A stretch of DNA of 23,233 nucleotides, taken from positions 1 through 23,233 of IMG/VR virus record IMGVR_UViG_3300034198_009299; one strand, written 5' to 3'. The translations under genes and the position numbers were made by a program. This DNA comes from a virus. This document shows, one piece after another, positions 404 to 14,861 of this stretch (the stretch's first letter is position 1; each line of letters starts with the position of its first letter). The notes beneath the pieces are model-generated. The model was not told the origin of the DNA, ran no database searches, and saw nothing but the letters and a program-made list of their open reading frames with translations.

Positions 404-1957
404 ATGCCAGTAACAGAGTGCAGCAACGGAAAATATCGCATCGGAGATGGTGCATGTGTATACACATCAAGAGCATCAGCGGAGCGGGCCTATCAGGCCT
501 ATCTTGCCATTGAAGGTGAGACAGCTAGGCAACATGAGAGCATGAAGGCAGATAGGAACAGGATAAGCTTCGACTTTGACGATACACTTGAGCACATGGC
601 GGTTCAGCGTATTGCAAAGAGATACATCGCAGACGGCAAGACGGTCTACATCATCACCCGCCGGCAAGAGTCAGCAAGCGAGGAGGTATATGCTGTGGCT
701 GAAGAGGTAGACATTAGTAGGCGCAATGTATACTTCACAAATGGCCGGATGAAATGGGAGACAGTGAAGCGGCTAAATATCGGTAGGCATTATGACAATA
801 ACGAGGATGAACTGCAGCTAATCCGTGACAACACGGATGCCATCGCGGTCTATGTGGATGATGACATGATGGATGATGGAGAAGGTTATGATGATGAAGG
901 TGAAGACATGAATGGAGATGAAGAAAAGCAGATAGCTTCATTTTTTGCATCGATCAAAGAAGAGACCTACAATGACTACCCACAGGCGGCCACTAACAAT
1001 GCCAAGCGTGCTTTAAAGTATAAAGAGGAGAATGGCTCTTCATGTGGCACTCCTGTCGGCTGGACAAGAGCCAGGCAGCTTGCAAATAAAGAGCGCATCA
1101 GCCGTGACACAATTACCAGGATGGCATCTTTCAAACGTCATCAGCAGAATAAAGATGTGCCGTACTCCGAGGGCTGTGGCGGCATCATGTGGGACGCATG
1201 GGGCGGTGACGCAGGCATAAATTGGGCAATTAGTAAATTGCAGCAGATTGACGAAAAAAATACGAGCATGATCTACGGATATAAGCGGCTGAGTCAGGAC
1301 ATCAAAGATGTAGATGCGAAGAAGGGCATCGTCACCGGCTACTTCTCAGCGTTCAACATAAAAGACTCTGACGGTGACATCATCCTTCCCGGCAGCTTCA
1401 AGCGCAGCATCGAAGAATGGCAACCGAAGGGCAGAATCAAGCATCTCCTGAACCATGACCCGCGCCAGCCACTGGGAAAGATTACCGAACTGCGTGAAGA
1501 CACTTATGGACTGTACTACGAGAGTCAGATAGGCAAGCACAACCTTGGCCAGGACTTCATCAAGATGGTGGAGAGTGACCTGGTTAAAGAGCATAGCATT
1601 GGCTTCAACATAAAGGGGCAAAGGAAGGCTGAAAATGCCAATGAAATTTATGACATAGTTTTGTATGAAGGAAGTTCACTGACATCGTGGGGCGCAAATG
1701 AATACACGCCACTACTTGGCTTGAAGAGTGCAGATGATAGAGTGCAAAGGATCAAGCGGCTTGAGAAATTTGTCAAGCATAGTGATGCCACTGATGAGAC
1801 TATTGAGCTTCTCATGTTAGAGATAAAACAACTGAACCAACTGGTCGAAGACTTGAGTAACGTGCCGGCATCTGTGCAGGAACCGGTAGAGCCAAAGGTT
1901 GATGAGACGAAGGCGGTTAAAGATGCTTTGGACATTCTGATTTACAAACACTTCTAA
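404..1957 (+). CDS. Multidomain HK97-type prohead protease with HAD-like phosphatase domain
   Basis: 517 residues, over twice the length of HK97 gp4. Residues 1-36 form a small Cys-containing module ending SAERAYQAYLA, often seen in phage head proteins. Residues 52-152 look like a HAD phosphatase: DFDDT with D57 and D59, T85 in IITRR, K117, and a HYDNNEDE segment around D131. An acidic linker follows (152-175). Residues 188-279 match a phage-associated domain with NNAKRALKYKEENG, ARQLANKERISRDT and WDAWGGDAGINWA. Residues 305-440 are the S78-type prohead protease, with probable catalytic H351 (LLNHDP) and S398 (KEHSIGF). The C-terminus (443-517) is helical and charged. The protease should mature the capsid built by the next gene. 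The role of the HAD part is unknown; its key residues look intact. Confidence 0.9.
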   Translation: MPVTECSNGKYRIGDGACVYTSRASAERAYQAYLAIEGETARQHESMKADRNRISFDFDDTLEHMAVQRIAKRYIADGKTVYIITRRQESASEEVYAVAEEVDISRRNVYFTNGRMKWETVKRLNIGRHYDNNEDELQLIRDNTDAIAVYVDDDMMDDGEGYDDEGEDMNGDEEKQIASFFASIKEETYNDYPQAATNNAKRALKYKEENGSSCGTPVGWTRARQLANKERISRDTITRMASFKRHQQNKDVPYSEGCGGIMWDAWGGDAGINWAISKLQQIDEKNTSMIYGYKRLSQDIKDVDAKKGIVTGYFSAFNIKDSDGDIILPGSFKRSIEEWQPKGRIKHLLNHDPRQPLGKITELREDTYGLYYESQIGKHNLGQDFIKMVESDLVKEHSIGFNIKGQRKAENANEIYDIVLYEGSSLTSWGANEYTPLLGLKSADDRVQRIKRLEKFVKHSDATDETIELLMLEIKQLNQLVEDLSNVPASVQEPVEPKVDETKAVKDALDILIYKHF

Positions 1958-1968
1958 AACAAATACAA

Positions 1969-3114
1969 ATGGAAGTAAAAGACATCGTGGCGGCGCTCGA
2001 TCCTAAAATCGCCGAAATTAAGAACCAAGTGGCTGCCGATGTTGCAGCACTTGACAGCAAGCATGCTGCAACAGTAGCACAGCTGAACGAAGATGCCCAG
2101 AAGAAGGGTGAGACTCTTTCCGAACTGCGCGAGAAGGTCAACGGCCTCATCTCCAGCAATGGCAAGATTAAGTCTGCGATCGAAGCTGATGCTTTCGCTG
2201 ATCGTCAGAAGTCAATGGGTAAACTGCTTGTAGAGATTGTGGCTGAGAACTTTGATGCCATCAAAAATGAGCGGCAATTCAATAGCATGAAAGCTGTTGA
2301 GACAATGACCTTGACAAACCAGCTGACGGGCACCAGTCAGGTCAGCTATGTCGAAAACCCAATTCTGCGCTCTTTCTTCAACCCGCACCTGTATGATGTT
2401 TTCCGCATCATCCCGACTGCAACCGGTAACGTGACTTTTCCGCGTGGGAATAATCCTCTCGGCGAAGGTTCGTTTGGCACTCAGACTGAAGGTAACAGCA
2501 AGGCTCAGGTTGACTATGATGTGACGATGGTGAACACCAGTGTTCCGTTCATCGCTGGCTTTGCAAAGGTATCTCGTCAGATGTTGCAAGACCTTCCTTT
2601 CCTTCAGGCATATCTCTCTCAGTCTCTGCTTGAAGACTGGAATCGCCGCGTGAACAACAGCTTCATGAGCACCATCACTGCTTCTGCCACTGCAGGTAGC
2701 ACTTCTGCTACTCCGGTCGCTGAGCGTGTTGTTGACTACACTGCTCAACACCTGGCCCTCGGTCTTGGTCAGCCTAACCTGATCTTGACCACTCACGCTG
2801 TATGGGCAAGCATCCTGAAGACTCAGCCTACCAACGGCTCTTACGGTGTACCAGGTGGCATCACCATCGGTGCAAACGGAGAGACTCGCATTATCGGTAT
2901 TCCGGTTGTGCCTCATTCTCAGATCGTCTCTGGTAAGATTTATGTCATGAACACCAATGCCTTCGCGATTGCTCAGGCTTCCGGCCTCGCAGTTCGTAGT
3001 ACGGAGTTCGACCAGGATGACTTCGTGAAGAACGTTGTAACCTACCGTGCAGAGGCTCGTGTTGCTCTTCTGAGCTTCCAGCCGACTGCAGCTGTTTACG
3101 GTTCAGCTTCCTAA
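1969..3114 (+). CDS. Major capsid protein, HK97 fold
   Basis: 381 residues. The first ~75 residues are Ala/Glu/Lys-rich and predicted coiled coil, like the delta (scaffolding) domain of HK97 gp5 that the protease removes. The capsid domain starts near residue 110: an E-loop-like TGNVTFPRG stretch (152-160), a long helix with SRQMLQDLPFLQAYL, a VNNSFM segment, and a C-terminal part with VVPHSQI, GKIYVMNTNAFAIA and YRAEARVALLSFQPTA, all typical of HK97-family capsids. The ATG follows an A-rich leader (aaaacaaatacaa) without Shine-Dalgarno sequence. The position right after the protease supports the call. The exact cleavage site cannot be read from sequence alone. Confidence 0.93.
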   Translation: MEVKDIVAALDPKIAEIKNQVAADVAALDSKHAATVAQLNEDAQKKGETLSELREKVNGLISSNGKIKSAIEADAFADRQKSMGKLLVEIVAENFDAIKNERQFNSMKAVETMTLTNQLTGTSQVSYVENPILRSFFNPHLYDVFRIIPTATGNVTFPRGNNPLGEGSFGTQTEGNSKAQVDYDVTMVNTSVPFIAGFAKVSRQMLQDLPFLQAYLSQSLLEDWNRRVNNSFMSTITASATAGSTSATPVAERVVDYTAQHLALGLGQPNLILTTHAVWASILKTQPTNGSYGVPGGITIGANGETRIIGIPVVPHSQIVSGKIYVMNTNAFAIAQASGLAVRSTEFDQDDFVKNVVTYRAEARVALLSFQPTAAVYGSAS

Positions 3115-3127
3115 CTGACACCATAAC

Positions 3128-3157
3128 AAGGGGAGGGGCTTAATTGCCTCTCCCTTT
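3128..3157 (+). terminator. Hairpin after the capsid gene, possible terminator or 3' end stabiliser
   Basis: A 12-bp stem (two G-T wobbles) at 3128-3139 and 3146-3157 encloses a 6-base TTAATT loop. It is followed by only a weak T stretch (agttt), so termination may be partial. It lies 13 bases after the capsid stop and just before a CA-repeat leader, marking the boundary between highly expressed capsid mRNA and the cargo genes. Confidence 0.6.
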
Positions 3158-3162
3158 AGTTT

Positions 3163-3182
3163 ACACACACAAAACACACACT
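3163..3182 (+). promoter_or_regulatory. CA-repeat leader before the methyltransferase ATG
   Basis: The 20 bases acacacacaaaacacacact directly precede the ATG at 3183. There is no Shine-Dalgarno sequence. It is the longest of seven similar leaders in the window. A role in translation initiation is inferred from position only. Confidence 0.6.
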
Positions 3183-3731
3183 ATGCCCATCGGCTCATAT
3201 TCTTCGTTTAGGGACATTATGCGTCAGGTCCTGATGCATTCACCTAAGTCAGTGCTTGACCTTGGCATAGGTCACGGCATCAATGGCGCGGGAGTGCGCA
3301 ATTGGCTTGACCTTGGTGTCAGGCCATACAAGACCCACCTGGTTGGTGTTGAAGGCTTCAAGGATTATGCTTCTCCGCTTTGGCAATGCTACGATCAGGT
3401 GTATGTGCAAGATATTGCACACTTTCTTCAGACTCCTGCGCAATTTGACTGCATCCTCATGACTGATGTGCTTGAGCACTTTGACAAAGATGAAGGCAAT
3501 GCAGTCATTCAGCAATGCCTCTCATGCTTGCAGAAAGGTGGCATCCTGCTCATATCCACTCCTGCAGTATGGATAGAGCAAGGCGCAGCGTATGGCAACG
3601 AATTTGAGCGCCATAAGAGCCTCTGGCACTTTACTGACTTTTTTGGAATGGCGGGGCTTGAGGTGATAAAAGACGGCAGCCAGGATGACATGGGCTACAT
3701 GATGCTTGTAGTAAAAATTACCAAGCAATGA
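3183..3731 (+). CDS. Class I SAM-dependent methyltransferase
   Basis: 182 residues. The ATG at 3183 after the CA leader is preferred to an upstream in-frame TTG at 3144, because that one lies inside the hairpin stem. Motif I is VLDLGIGHGING (24-35), an acidic residue at the end of strand 2 is E57 (VGVEGF), then DVLEHF (95-100) and GGILLIST (119-126): the Rossmann-fold pattern of UbiG/Methyltransf_23-like enzymes. No DNA-methylase NPPY/DPPY or PC motif is visible, so a small molecule, glycan or protein substrate is more likely than DNA. It overlaps the glycosyltransferase by ATGA, so the two are probably made together. Placement inside the morphogenesis operon suggests virion or host-surface modification (inference). 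Confidence 0.85.
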   Translation: MPIGSYSSFRDIMRQVLMHSPKSVLDLGIGHGINGAGVRNWLDLGVRPYKTHLVGVEGFKDYASPLWQCYDQVYVQDIAHFLQTPAQFDCILMTDVLEHFDKDEGNAVIQQCLSCLQKGGILLISTPAVWIEQGAAYGNEFERHKSLWHFTDFFGMAGLEVIKDGSQDDMGYMMLVVKITKQ

Positions 3732-4720
3732 GACTGCTAAACAGCATCCATCTTTATCCACCACAGCACACATGTGGCGCGGAGTTCATGGCACATTGGA
3801 TCAACAAGGACATACAGGCTAACGGCGGTGATGTGAGGGTTTTGCTGCACCAGGCACGGCACTACCACATAAATAGCATGTATGTCTATGATGGCATTGA
3901 TGTCTTCCCACCTGAGCAGATGGTCATTGAAAAGCTTTTCTGGTGGGCTGATGCGGTGATGACTCATTTGGATTACACTGACTGGACCATAGGTATGGGA
4001 GAAGTGATGAAAAAGCCCATCTTCCATCTTATTCACAATACATCTACCTATGGCCGCATCGTCATGGCTGACAGGCCGCAGTACATTGTCTACAACAGTG
4101 AATGGGCAAAGGATCAGCTTGGGTACAAGCATGACAGCATCGTGGTGCCTCCACCTGTAGACTGGCGGCATTATGATACCAATGTTGACCCATCGTACAA
4201 CGAAGCCATCACGCTCATCAACCTTGATCAGAATAAAGGCGGCCATATCCTCCGGCAAATAGCGGAGGCCATGCCACATAAAAAGTTCATTGGTGTCATG
4301 GGCAGCTATTCCGAACCTTCGGATATTGGCCAACATGTTAATCAGCCTCCTAATGTGACAGTCTTGCCAAAAACAAATGACATAAAAGCGATTTATCGCC
4401 AGACCCGGATACTTATCATGCCCAGTAAATATGAGAGCTGGGGACGCACGGCAACGGAGGCCATGTGTTCAGGCATCCCAGTCATAAGCTCTGGCACTCC
4501 TGGTCTGCGAGAGAATTGTGGCAAGGCCGGTATCTATCTTGACCGGGAGGAAGTCAAGCTATGGGTTGACAAAATTGATGAATTAGACAAGCCAAAGCTT
4601 TACGAAAAGTGGAGCAATGCGGCTAAGAAGCGTAGCCGTGAGCTTGACCCACAGGCAAAGCTTGCAGAACTTCGTACCTTTATGCAGTCATCAATTGATG
4701 ACTATAAAAGACGAGTATGA
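3728..4720 (+). CDS. GT-B fold glycosyltransferase (GT4-like)
   Basis: 330 residues. The N-terminal Rossmann half begins MRLLNSIHLYPPQ and has the HTCGAEF segment (14-20), comparable to the GGAE motif of GT4 enzymes. The C-terminal half starts near 160 with INLDQNKGG and holds the nucleotide-sugar signature ESWGRTATEAMCSGIPVIS, whose E236 and E244 form the EX7E motif. SSGTPGLREN (254-263) follows. Such enzymes move a sugar from an NDP-sugar donor. It overlaps both neighbours by ATGA, which ties it to the methyltransferase and to the connector gene. The acceptor is unknown: capsid or tail protein, host surface glycan, or modified nucleotide are all possible. Confidence 0.87.
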   Translation: MRLLNSIHLYPPQHTCGAEFMAHWINKDIQANGGDVRVLLHQARHYHINSMYVYDGIDVFPPEQMVIEKLFWWADAVMTHLDYTDWTIGMGEVMKKPIFHLIHNTSTYGRIVMADRPQYIVYNSEWAKDQLGYKHDSIVVPPPVDWRHYDTNVDPSYNEAITLINLDQNKGGHILRQIAEAMPHKKFIGVMGSYSEPSDIGQHVNQPPNVTVLPKTNDIKAIYRQTRILIMPSKYESWGRTATEAMCSGIPVISSGTPGLRENCGKAGIYLDREEVKLWVDKIDELDKPKLYEKWSNAAKKRSRELDPQAKLAELRTFMQSSIDDYKRRV

Positions 4721-11898: not shown

Positions 11899-12729
11899 AT
11901 GCTCGGAGCTTCTACATACACAAATGGGGTGCCACGCCCATACATCAATGTATCAGGCATTGATGCGCAGGATGTCATTATCATCGATCGCAACGGCATT
12001 GGAGTGAAACATATCACCTATTTTCCGGGCAGCGAGGATGTGAGCCTGCTGACTTACGAATATTATGGGGTAAAGACTGAGACACCAACGGCCACCAATG
12101 ACTTGAAAGTGCTCAGCGATTATATCTCCGGTACAGATAGGCAGATCATACTTAAGGTGCAGAGCACTCCGATAGCAGGCTTTGTCTTCTCGGTCTATTC
12201 AGGCAGCATAATAGCATCTTATGTGGTGCAGAGTGGTGACACTGCCGAGGATGTGAGGGATGCCATTATCACAGAGATAGATGCGACAGCCTGGGGTACT
12301 ACAGTTGCCTGCACTCCAATCGGTATGGACAGGATACAAATAGACATCACCGGCATATCAGTAGATCTATTCACCAAGATAGGCAGTCAGATATTTAAGA
12401 AGGGCTACTATGTGGTCATATCTACTATGAGCTACATCATAGAAGAAAAGACCGACCCGTATACCTGGCCGACATTGTCAACGCCACCGACATCATTAGC
12501 CTTTGGCGCATTAGTGTCGCTGACGGGTAGTGTGGAGGCATATCTCACTGACGCTCTATCTACTTATACATACAGCGATAGTGTGACGGGTAGCGTGACC
12601 ATCACTGCCATTGCCACATCTACAAATGTGCCATTCAACCAGTGCGTCATTGATGAGGTCAATCAAAAGATATGGTTCACAGAAGATTTATCATACGGAG
12701 AGATTATAAAAGTATTCTACAAGACATGA
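11899..12729 (+). CDS. Beta-rich tail protein of unknown function
   Basis: 276 residues. Near its N-terminus it repeats the motif DRNGIGVKHIT found in the C-terminal module of the preceding gene, and its last 30 residues (IWFTEDLSYGEIIKVFYKT) resemble the end of that gene (LTFGTALSAGEWILVLF). The two probably share a small module. The middle has many Thr/Ser/Ile strands and no catalytic motif that I recognise. It starts three bases after the previous stop and overlaps the fibre gene by ATGA. A tail-tip or fibre-attachment role is inferred from position. Confidence 0.55.
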   Translation: MLGASTYTNGVPRPYINVSGIDAQDVIIIDRNGIGVKHITYFPGSEDVSLLTYEYYGVKTETPTATNDLKVLSDYISGTDRQIILKVQSTPIAGFVFSVYSGSIIASYVVQSGDTAEDVRDAIITEIDATAWGTTVACTPIGMDRIQIDITGISVDLFTKIGSQIFKKGYYVVISTMSYIIEEKTDPYTWPTLSTPPTSLAFGALVSLTGSVEAYLTDALSTYTYSDSVTGSVTITAIATSTNVPFNQCVIDEVNQKIWFTEDLSYGEIIKVFYKT

Positions 12730-14861
12730 GATACCTTCTACTTTTCATTTTTTCAGTGTCTGCATTATTTGCTAATGCTCAGCAAGTGAACCCGGTGACG
12801 GACTATACTTTTGCCAATAAAATGAGTTCAGGCCGCAGCACTGTCACCGACACGGCTGCTTACTTCAGCGTAGGGCCTCGTTTCGGGGCTATTAGGGGCA
12901 TGATGCCGCCAATTGTGGTAGATACTGCTGTAGTTGTCGCAAACAAGCGTAATGGCCTTCTAATCTTCTCTGTGCAGAAGAATAAAATGCAGGTATGGGA
13001 TAGTGCAGGCTCAAAGTGGGCAGACCTGACGGGGTCTGCTGGATCTGCCATCACTTCAGCCGACACAGCCAGCATGCTCCTGCCGTATCTCAGGAAGGTT
13101 GACACCACTGCAATGCTCCTGCCGTATCTCAGGAAGGTTGACACCACTGCAATGCTCCTGCCGTATCTCAGGAAGGTTGACACCACTGCAATGCTGTCAC
13201 CATATTTAAAAGAAAGTGACACAACATTTTTGAGTAACAGGATTAATTTAAAGGTAAACATGAGTGATACATCCACCATGCTGTCGCCTTACGTTCGTGG
13301 TTCGGGAACTGCAAACTATCTCCCGAAGTTCAACGCCTCCCGTTCTATTGTGGACTCGAAGGTTTACGAAACCGGAACGAATCTGATGTTCAATACTACG
13401 ACTCCGTATATTTCATCATCCGGATACGGAACGTTCGACATCAATGGTTCAACTGCATCCGTCTTGGTTTTACGCAAGACCGACACAGCAAGGGGGTACT
13501 GGTCGCACAATGGTTCAACAATGGACATCAATAACCTTTCAGCCGGAGATATTCGTTTCTATACCCAAGGAAGTTTAAGAGGTCGTTTCCAAACCGACGG
13601 AACATTCCGACTTAATTCATTAACGGGAACGGGTGATCGTATCGTGACGGCGGACGCAAACGGCGTACTATCTGCGACATCATCCGCTACCGGACTTGTT
13701 GACACGACGGTATTAAGTACAAGGGCATGGAGGCAAAAGGGCATAGATAGTGTGAACGCAAATGTAGCATTGAAAGTAAATATTAGCGACACGGCATCGA
13801 TGCTTACAAACTACATCCGTCATGCGGGTAATGGGCTGACAAAAAGTGGTCAAGCATTAAGCGTGGACACGGCTGCAATCGCCACACGTGCAAGGGTGCA
13901 GAAAGGGATTGATTCGGTTGCAACATTGGCAACGGCGGGGGTTACATCAGTCGCTACGGGTTACGGCTTATCCGGTGGCACAATCACCACAACGGGAACG
14001 ATTTCAGCGGATACCTTGCAACTTTCAACAAGGGCATGGAGGCAAAAAGGACTTGATTCATTGGCGGCACTTGAAATTAGCGGGAGCGGTACTGCGGGGC
14101 AAGTCGCATATTTTGACGGCACACGAAGCATAACCGGAGAAAATGCTTTATTCTACGATGCAACAAATGATAGGCTTGGAATTAATACATCATCTCCGTC
14201 TTATCGTTTGGACGTAAGCGGTACATTCAGATCATCTCATGCCGGAGGGATTTTAAGATACGAGCCTGAAACAATCAGCGGAAACTTGACAAGTCATTTC
14301 AATTTAAGGGCATACACAACATACAACAATCAAATTTCATTCACTGAAATAGGTGTAGCGGATAGGTGGTCTTTCGGAACTCGAACTGGCGATGATAAAT
14401 TATATTTTAGCCAAGGTGCAACGGTTAGCGGATCTGTTCGTATGATGCTTAACACATCTGCGGAACTACTCCTCAACACCACCACTGACGCCGGGGACTA
14501 CAAACTACAAGTTAGCGGGAACGCATATGTTACGGGCGCAATAACATCAACGTCAAATTTATTCATCACGTCATCCTTTCCAGAATATTTAGCCCAATTA
14601 AACACGGCAGGCGGGCAGCGCATTAGAATGAGGGTAAACGGAACGGACGGGGAAATACAAGTTACAAGGGCATTGGGAACAGTTCCCGCATTATTATTTA
14701 GCACCGAAGGGGGTGAAAAATTACGCATTGAAAATGCGGGAGGTATTAAATTTAATCCGCAATCAGCGGCAGCAAACGCAACTGCCGGAACGGTGTATTA
14801 CGATTCAGATGATAACAAACTAAAGGTGTATAACGGCACAACTTGGGTAGACCTTCATTAA
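12726..14861 (+). CDS. Repeat-containing tail fibre / receptor-binding protein with signal peptide
   Basis: 711 residues from the ATG at 12726, which overlaps the previous stop (ATGA); an in-frame start at 12672 would run into the preceding gene and is rejected. The N-terminus MRYLLLFIFSVSALFANAQQ is a classic Sec signal peptide with likely cleavage after ANA. Three identical 13-residue repeats MLLPYLRKVDTTA and diverged copies follow, then three TRAWRQKG(I/L)DS-type repeats, DRLGINTSSPSYRLDVSG and a C-terminus ending KVYNGTTWVDLH, all usual in trimeric fibres. No S74 chaperone domain is present. Codon choice appears to change near 13,280, suggesting a swapped distal part. Receptor binding is inferred. 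Confidence 0.75.
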   Translation: MRYLLLFIFSVSALFANAQQVNPVTDYTFANKMSSGRSTVTDTAAYFSVGPRFGAIRGMMPPIVVDTAVVVANKRNGLLIFSVQKNKMQVWDSAGSKWADLTGSAGSAITSADTASMLLPYLRKVDTTAMLLPYLRKVDTTAMLLPYLRKVDTTAMLSPYLKESDTTFLSNRINLKVNMSDTSTMLSPYVRGSGTANYLPKFNASRSIVDSKVYETGTNLMFNTTTPYISSSGYGTFDINGSTASVLVLRKTDTARGYWSHNGSTMDINNLSAGDIRFYTQGSLRGRFQTDGTFRLNSLTGTGDRIVTADANGVLSATSSATGLVDTTVLSTRAWRQKGIDSVNANVALKVNISDTASMLTNYIRHAGNGLTKSGQALSVDTAAIATRARVQKGIDSVATLATAGVTSVATGYGLSGGTITTTGTISADTLQLSTRAWRQKGLDSLAALEISGSGTAGQVAYFDGTRSITGENALFYDATNDRLGINTSSPSYRLDVSGTFRSSHAGGILRYEPETISGNLTSHFNLRAYTTYNNQISFTEIGVADRWSFGTRTGDDKLYFSQGATVSGSVRMMLNTSAELLLNTTTDAGDYKLQVSGNAYVTGAITSTSNLFITSSFPEYLAQLNTAGGQRIRMRVNGTDGEIQVTRALGTVPALLFSTEGGEKLRIENAGGIKFNPQSAAANATAGTVYYDSDDNKLKVYNGTTWVDLH
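13074..13190 (+). repeat. Three perfect tandem copies of a 39-bp unit in the fibre gene
   Basis: Units start at 13074, 13113 and 13152, each 39 bp and identical in DNA as well as protein (MLLPYLRKVDTTA). A fourth, diverged copy starts at 13191. Exact identity implies recent slippage or unequal recombination. In-frame length changes would lengthen or shorten the fibre shaft. Confidence 0.95.

Follow-up and report, generated by a model that had tools for sequence, protein, structure and literature searches.

We found that a bacteriophage gene for an HK97-type prohead protease also encodes a phosphatase-like domain of the HAD type, which appears catalytically intact and which is optional among close relatives of the protease. 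The gene lies in the window, by which we mean the whole stretch of 23,233 nucleotides that was analysed (IMG/VR virus record IMGVR_UViG_3300034198_009299), and its product joins an N-terminal module, the HAD domain, a WGGD domain and an S78 protease domain (Table 1). We see about an even chance that the HAD domain is an accessory phosphatase for nucleotides or nucleic-acid ends, which enters the prohead attached to the protease and is released there by cleavage. While HAD enzymes and S78 proteases are each well known, the new elements are that the two are combined, that the combination comes and goes among relatives, and that the domain has a Lys-Ala flank. In the literature that we searched, we found no paper describing a fusion of a HAD domain with a prohead protease.

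A HAD-like domain within a prohead protease gene

On the basis of its profile matches, the C-terminal part of the gene is certainly a prohead protease of the HK97 type. The S78 domain scores above the curated cut-offs of both PF04586 (E 4e-18, 66.5 bits, cut-off 21) and TIGR01543 (E 1.5e-23, 83.5 bits, cut-off 59), and the His and Ser that had been assigned to the protease in the original prediction are conserved in every homologue compared. The likeness to the HK97 family (Peptidase S78) lies in the catalytic domain with H351 and S398, and it extends to the gene order, with the end of a MuF-like head protein (1-399) on the 5' side and the major capsid protein on the 3' side. The protease of HK97 itself is not known to carry a HAD or WGGD extension. 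M289 sits in an otherwise variable linker, A-rich upstream, and protease-only homologues appear to begin at its position. An internal start at this codon is plausible and would yield a nested free protease of 229 aa.

No family model in the profile libraries scores above its cut-off on the HAD segment, and weak profile matches, for example to TrmB, were taken as chance. An AlphaFold2 model of aa 48-155, built from an alignment of 20 relatives, reached a pLDDT of 95.1 and a pTM of 0.88. The best match among solved structures was the 3'-phosphatase domain of T4 Pnkp (Z 12.4, rmsd 2.3, 104 residues, 16% identity), followed by a phosphoserine phosphatase (Z 12.1) and a universal stress protein (Z 12.0), and most of the top rows were HAD proteins. 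Since universal stress proteins, which have another Rossmann-like fold, tie at Z 12.0, the fold alone is no proof of a HAD domain. The assignment rests on the predicted fold together with the sequence motifs, and it is the motifs that decide.

All four motifs were found: D57, D59 and T61 fit motif I, DxDx(T/V), T85 fits the T/S of motif II, K117 the Lys of motif III and D131 the acidic motif IV. These residues, as well as R87, are unchanged across the fused and the stand-alone relatives. The conservation extends down to an Elemovirus phage protein of 34% identity, which is annotated as a HAD hydrolase. A HAD-like domain with intact residues had been proposed, and a non-HAD fold or unconserved catalytic residues had been named as the outcomes that would speak against it. 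Both were examined; the predicted fold is that of a HAD protein, and D57, D59, T85 and K117 are invariant among the homologues. As for the acidic motif that had been noticed, it is D131 in HYDNNEDE (129-136) that matters, while the acidic linker at 153-180 is not the motif. The domain would be capless, as its length of about 105 residues is too short to accommodate a cap.

Between the window and its relative L001, dN/dS is 0.017 for the HAD domain, 0.031 for S78 and 0.055 for WGGD, at a dS of 0.87. Judged by these ratios, the HAD domain is maintained for function under strong purifying selection. A Foldseek search against BFVD lists HAD-like proteins under the names 'XkdF', at 36-50% identity, and 'Prohead protease', at 15-19%, which hints at further fusions.

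The N-module is real, with C6 and C18 invariant in 86 of 86 sequences, but its description as Cys-rich was overstated, as it has these two Cys only. Within this group, HAD proteins and proteases alike have the module with its two invariant Cys, irrespective of which other domains they contain. The proposed WGGD domain proved to be a real conserved domain, although no Pfam family describes it. It is 53-59% identical in haloarchaeal viruses, namely in the HGTV-1 protease and in portal-MuF proteins of HRTV-4 and HRTV-28. It was also found in proteins of cyanobacterial, Vibrio and Roseobacter viruses, many of which are annotated as head proteins, and inside capsid-annotated genes of Synechococcus and Roseobacter phages.

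Table 1. Features of the gene and of the adjoining capsid gene, with positions in the window
Feature	Position	Strand	Evidence
Complete gene (517 aa) with N-module + HAD + WGGD + S78 prohead protease	404..1957	+	ORF and profile matches
N-module, aa 1-37, beta-beta-alpha in the model	404..514	+	C6, C18 invariant
Variable low-confidence linker, aa 38-48	515..547	+	pLDDT <50 at 37-47
K48-A49, predicted protease cleavage site before HAD	545..550	+	K-A in 26/26 fused, 0/34 non-S78 HADs
HAD domain, aa 49-152	548..859	+	AF2 pLDDT 95, fold matches, empty slot in L004
HAD motif I, D57-x-D59-x-T61	572..586	+	Invariant
HAD motif II, T85-R86-R87	656..664	+	T85 and R87 invariant
HAD motif III, K117	752..754	+	Invariant
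HAD motif IV, H129-Y-D131-N132...E136	788..811	+	D131, N132, E136 invariant
Acidic low-confidence linker, aa 153-187	860..964	+	pLDDT <50 at 157-188
K185-E186, second predicted cleavage site	956..961	+	Lys in 124/124 WGGD-containing proteases
WGGD domain, aa 188-285	965..1258	+	phrog_2859; other viruses have it in portal and protease proteins and in capsid-annotated ones
M289, possible internal start of free S78 protease	1268..1270	+	ATG in 98/98 homologues
S78 prohead protease domain, aa 300-435	1301..1708	+	PF04586, TIGR01543
H351, conserved catalytic-type His	1454..1456	+	88/88 homologues
S398, conserved catalytic-type Ser	1595..1597	+	87/87 homologues
K441-S442, possible C-terminal cleavage site after protease domain	1724..1729	+	K441 in 87/87
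Major capsid protein, presumed protease substrate	1969..3114	+	PF05065 E 1.7e-19, TIGR01554
Capsid protein K108-A109, presumed delta-domain cut	2290..2295	+	K 67/67, next residue A 49/67

Distribution of the HAD module and predicted cut sites

The HAD domain occurs in four architectures: N-module+HAD+WGGD+S78 as in the window, N-module+HAD+S78, N-module+HAD+WGGD without S78, and N-module+HAD alone, the last being a protein of 143-170 aa. Among the distinct S78 proteins collected, 102 consist of N-module, WGGD and S78 without HAD, compared to 33 with HAD. Among the empty forms, L004 comes closest: over WGGD and S78 it shares 96% identity with the window protein, it breaks off at the HAD domain, and its empty slot lies at the matching place. 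Since most homologues lack the domain, including L004 with its near-identical remainder, HAD is not needed for protease function. Mapping of its presence and absence on the WGGD+S78 tree required 16 changes, 15 of which are forced by well-supported branches, whereas shuffling gave a mean of 19.8. As this number is little below random, the module appears to have been exchanged or lost often. In the HAD tree, the S78-joined domains make up one side of a single branch (support 98/88). The simplest reading of the two trees would be one fusion origin, followed by recombination or loss inside the group. The linker as a general insertion hotspot was discarded; HAD-less slots measure at most 43 aa and never hold another domain.

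The original prediction had proposed checking whether other phages encode the domains separately, and we indeed found HAD as a protein of its own in phages without an S78 match. In none of the 15 searched contigs with non-S78 HADs was an S78 protease found, so that a head-maturation role is unlikely for the separate HADs. Four contigs of the HAD+WGGD or the N-module+HAD-alone type (L120, L139, L145 and L163), which were read in detail, have the HAD gene just upstream of the terminase genes, in part by sequence reading, and other relatives with a separate HAD place the gene among unrelated small genes. No complementing HAD of the same family was found elsewhere in 20 contigs, possibly fragments, with a HAD-less protease. 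Bacterial homologues of the HAD domain were not found in genome_contigs, and a wider search seeded with the HAD of an Elizabethkingia phage gave no matches.

In the full-length model, low-confidence linkers (37-47, 157-188 and 284-300) lie between the N-terminal domains and HAD has a pLDDT near 90; the S78 part is poorly modelled (shallow alignment). The capsid protein of HK97 is cut at K103/S104 (PMC10275583), and in phage phi12 cleavage after R and K has been described for the capsid protein and for Ccm (PMC8569155). The capsid proteins compared here have an invariant Lys, mostly as Lys-Ala, at the boundary corresponding to the HK97 cut, and this Lys at the presumed cut is a further likeness to the HK97 family, here known from sequence. 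Lys residues likewise stand at both flanks of the HAD domain (Table 1). From these positions we infer that the protease may separate the N-module, HAD and the WGGD-protease part by cuts after Lys. Because the fused HADs form one clade, the association of Lys-Ala with the protease-joined form amounts phylogenetically to one contrast. As for the Lys before WGGD, it is present also where HAD is absent, so that its origin does not lie in the release of HAD.

Possible roles of the HAD domain

Our preferred reading is that of a passenger. The capless HAD module would occupy a flexible linker in the extension that the S78 protease has at its N-terminus, without being part of the cutting machinery, and the protease would carry it into the prohead as a covalent passenger. 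There, the protease would cut after Lys at both HAD flanks, as is presumed for the capsid protein, and the freed HAD would either stay trapped in the head or leave it along with the ejected DNA. It might remove phosphate from nucleotides or nucleic-acid ends, either in the head or after ejection, or already in the cell before assembly. More generally, we tentatively propose, with more doubt than confidence, that a maturation protease may double as a delivery vehicle for an optional enzyme. Such an enzyme would be carried in cis between cut sites of the protease itself and set free in the prohead, to be kept there or to leave along with the ejected DNA. The original prediction of an active enzyme that is packaged or released at head maturation is now better supported by the Lys-Ala flank, which is specific to the protease-joined form, and by the low-confidence linkers on both sides; the substrate, the cleavages and the packaging are what we infer.

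Regarding the substrate, the second half of the HAD domain shows weak profile similarity (E about 6e-4) to 5'-nucleotidases, both to PF06189 (E 5.8e-4, best 19.2 bits, below the gathering cut-off of 28.2, with only about 70 of 302 model positions matched) and to phrog_8630 (E 5.9e-4). With the T4 Pnkp 3'-phosphatase it shares the fold, the DxDxT motif and the Lys of motif III, and motif II of Pnkp, S-x-R, resembles its T-x-R. It differs from Pnkp in sequence, at the 16% identity given above, and the window protein is without a kinase domain. R176 and D254, which are essential in Pnkp, have no evident counterpart in the window HAD. Moreover, Pnkp was not among the matches in a profile search of PDB sequences, and its fold match is tied with those of other HADs. 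The hints from PF06189, phrog_8630 and the Pnkp fold are weak and point two ways.

The main rival, which we consider unlikely though still worth weighing, is that HAD works in the cytoplasm of the infected cell, for example in nucleotide salvage or in clearing 3'-phosphates, before or beside head assembly. The fusion would then be a convenience that provides late expression only, and the maturation cuts would destroy or discard the domain. Free HADs of 143-170 aa in other phages, adjoining the terminase where read and in contigs without S78, agree with this, as do distant HAD relatives in other phages that lie away from head genes. The separate HADs near the terminase or among small genes fit cytoplasmic action and count against our passenger reading. 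The same holds for M289: if it is an internal start, a large share of the protease may lack HAD from the outset. However, a cytoplasmic role leaves unexplained why the domain is fused in frame to a protein which enters the prohead, and why the K-A flank is limited to the protease-joined form.

It seems improbable to us that HAD serves counter-defence; such an enzyme, whether it arrives with the DNA or is produced early, might repair RNA or DNA ends or destroy a host signalling nucleotide. The accessory, labile distribution of HAD is typical of host-conflict genes, and the 3'-phosphatase of T4 Pnkp, an enzyme with a known role in RNA repair, is among the closest folds, but this match is tied with unrelated HADs. 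Such a function is compatible with the passenger reading and would become a sub-case of it if delivery were shown.

The original prediction considered both nucleotides and head proteins as targets. Nucleotides or nucleic-acid ends are the stronger reading, and action on head proteins the weaker, since HAD is optional in near-identical proteases and occurs separately in S78-less phages. A role of HAD in dephosphorylating head proteins, or in regulating assembly or the activity of the protease in some other way, is very improbable in our view: its place within the protease polypeptide and the purifying selection would fit, but the majority of close relatives assemble in its absence, among them one with 96% identity elsewhere, and it is found in phages without a detectable S78 protease. 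Least probable of all is a catalytically dead spacer or scaffold-like domain, which would agree with the tolerated absence of HAD but not with catalytic motifs that are invariant across fused and stand-alone relatives.

Comparison with other phage systems

In T4, the internal proteins and Alt bear a targeting propeptide when they enter the head; the prohead protease removes it, and the proteins are ejected (PMC7411985). Our working model is alike in that a passenger would enter the prohead and be freed by the prohead protease. It differs in that the T4 passenger travels on a short targeting peptide, whereas here it would be joined to the protease itself. In the MuF polymorphic toxins of temperate phages, enzymatic domains are joined to head-morphogenesis proteins (PMC5576092); there, MuF is the carrier and a C-terminal toxin the passenger, while in the window the carrier would be the protease and the passenger is phosphatase-like.

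If the passenger reading is true, a head-maturation protease would serve as the carrier for an accessory enzyme, a loading route unlike the short targeting peptides of T4. In that case, a search for further virion-borne enzymes of uncultured phages could turn to protease fusions. With natural pairs that differ in having HAD, such as the window and L004, the role of the module can be tested directly.

Elsewhere in the window, reading of the sequence places two genes, one methyltransferase-like and one glycosyltransferase-like (3144-4720), between the capsid protein and the head-tail genes, and L171 has the same pair in this position. A tail-fibre-like protein at 12672-14861 contains near-identical short repeats (TAMLLPYLRKVDT).
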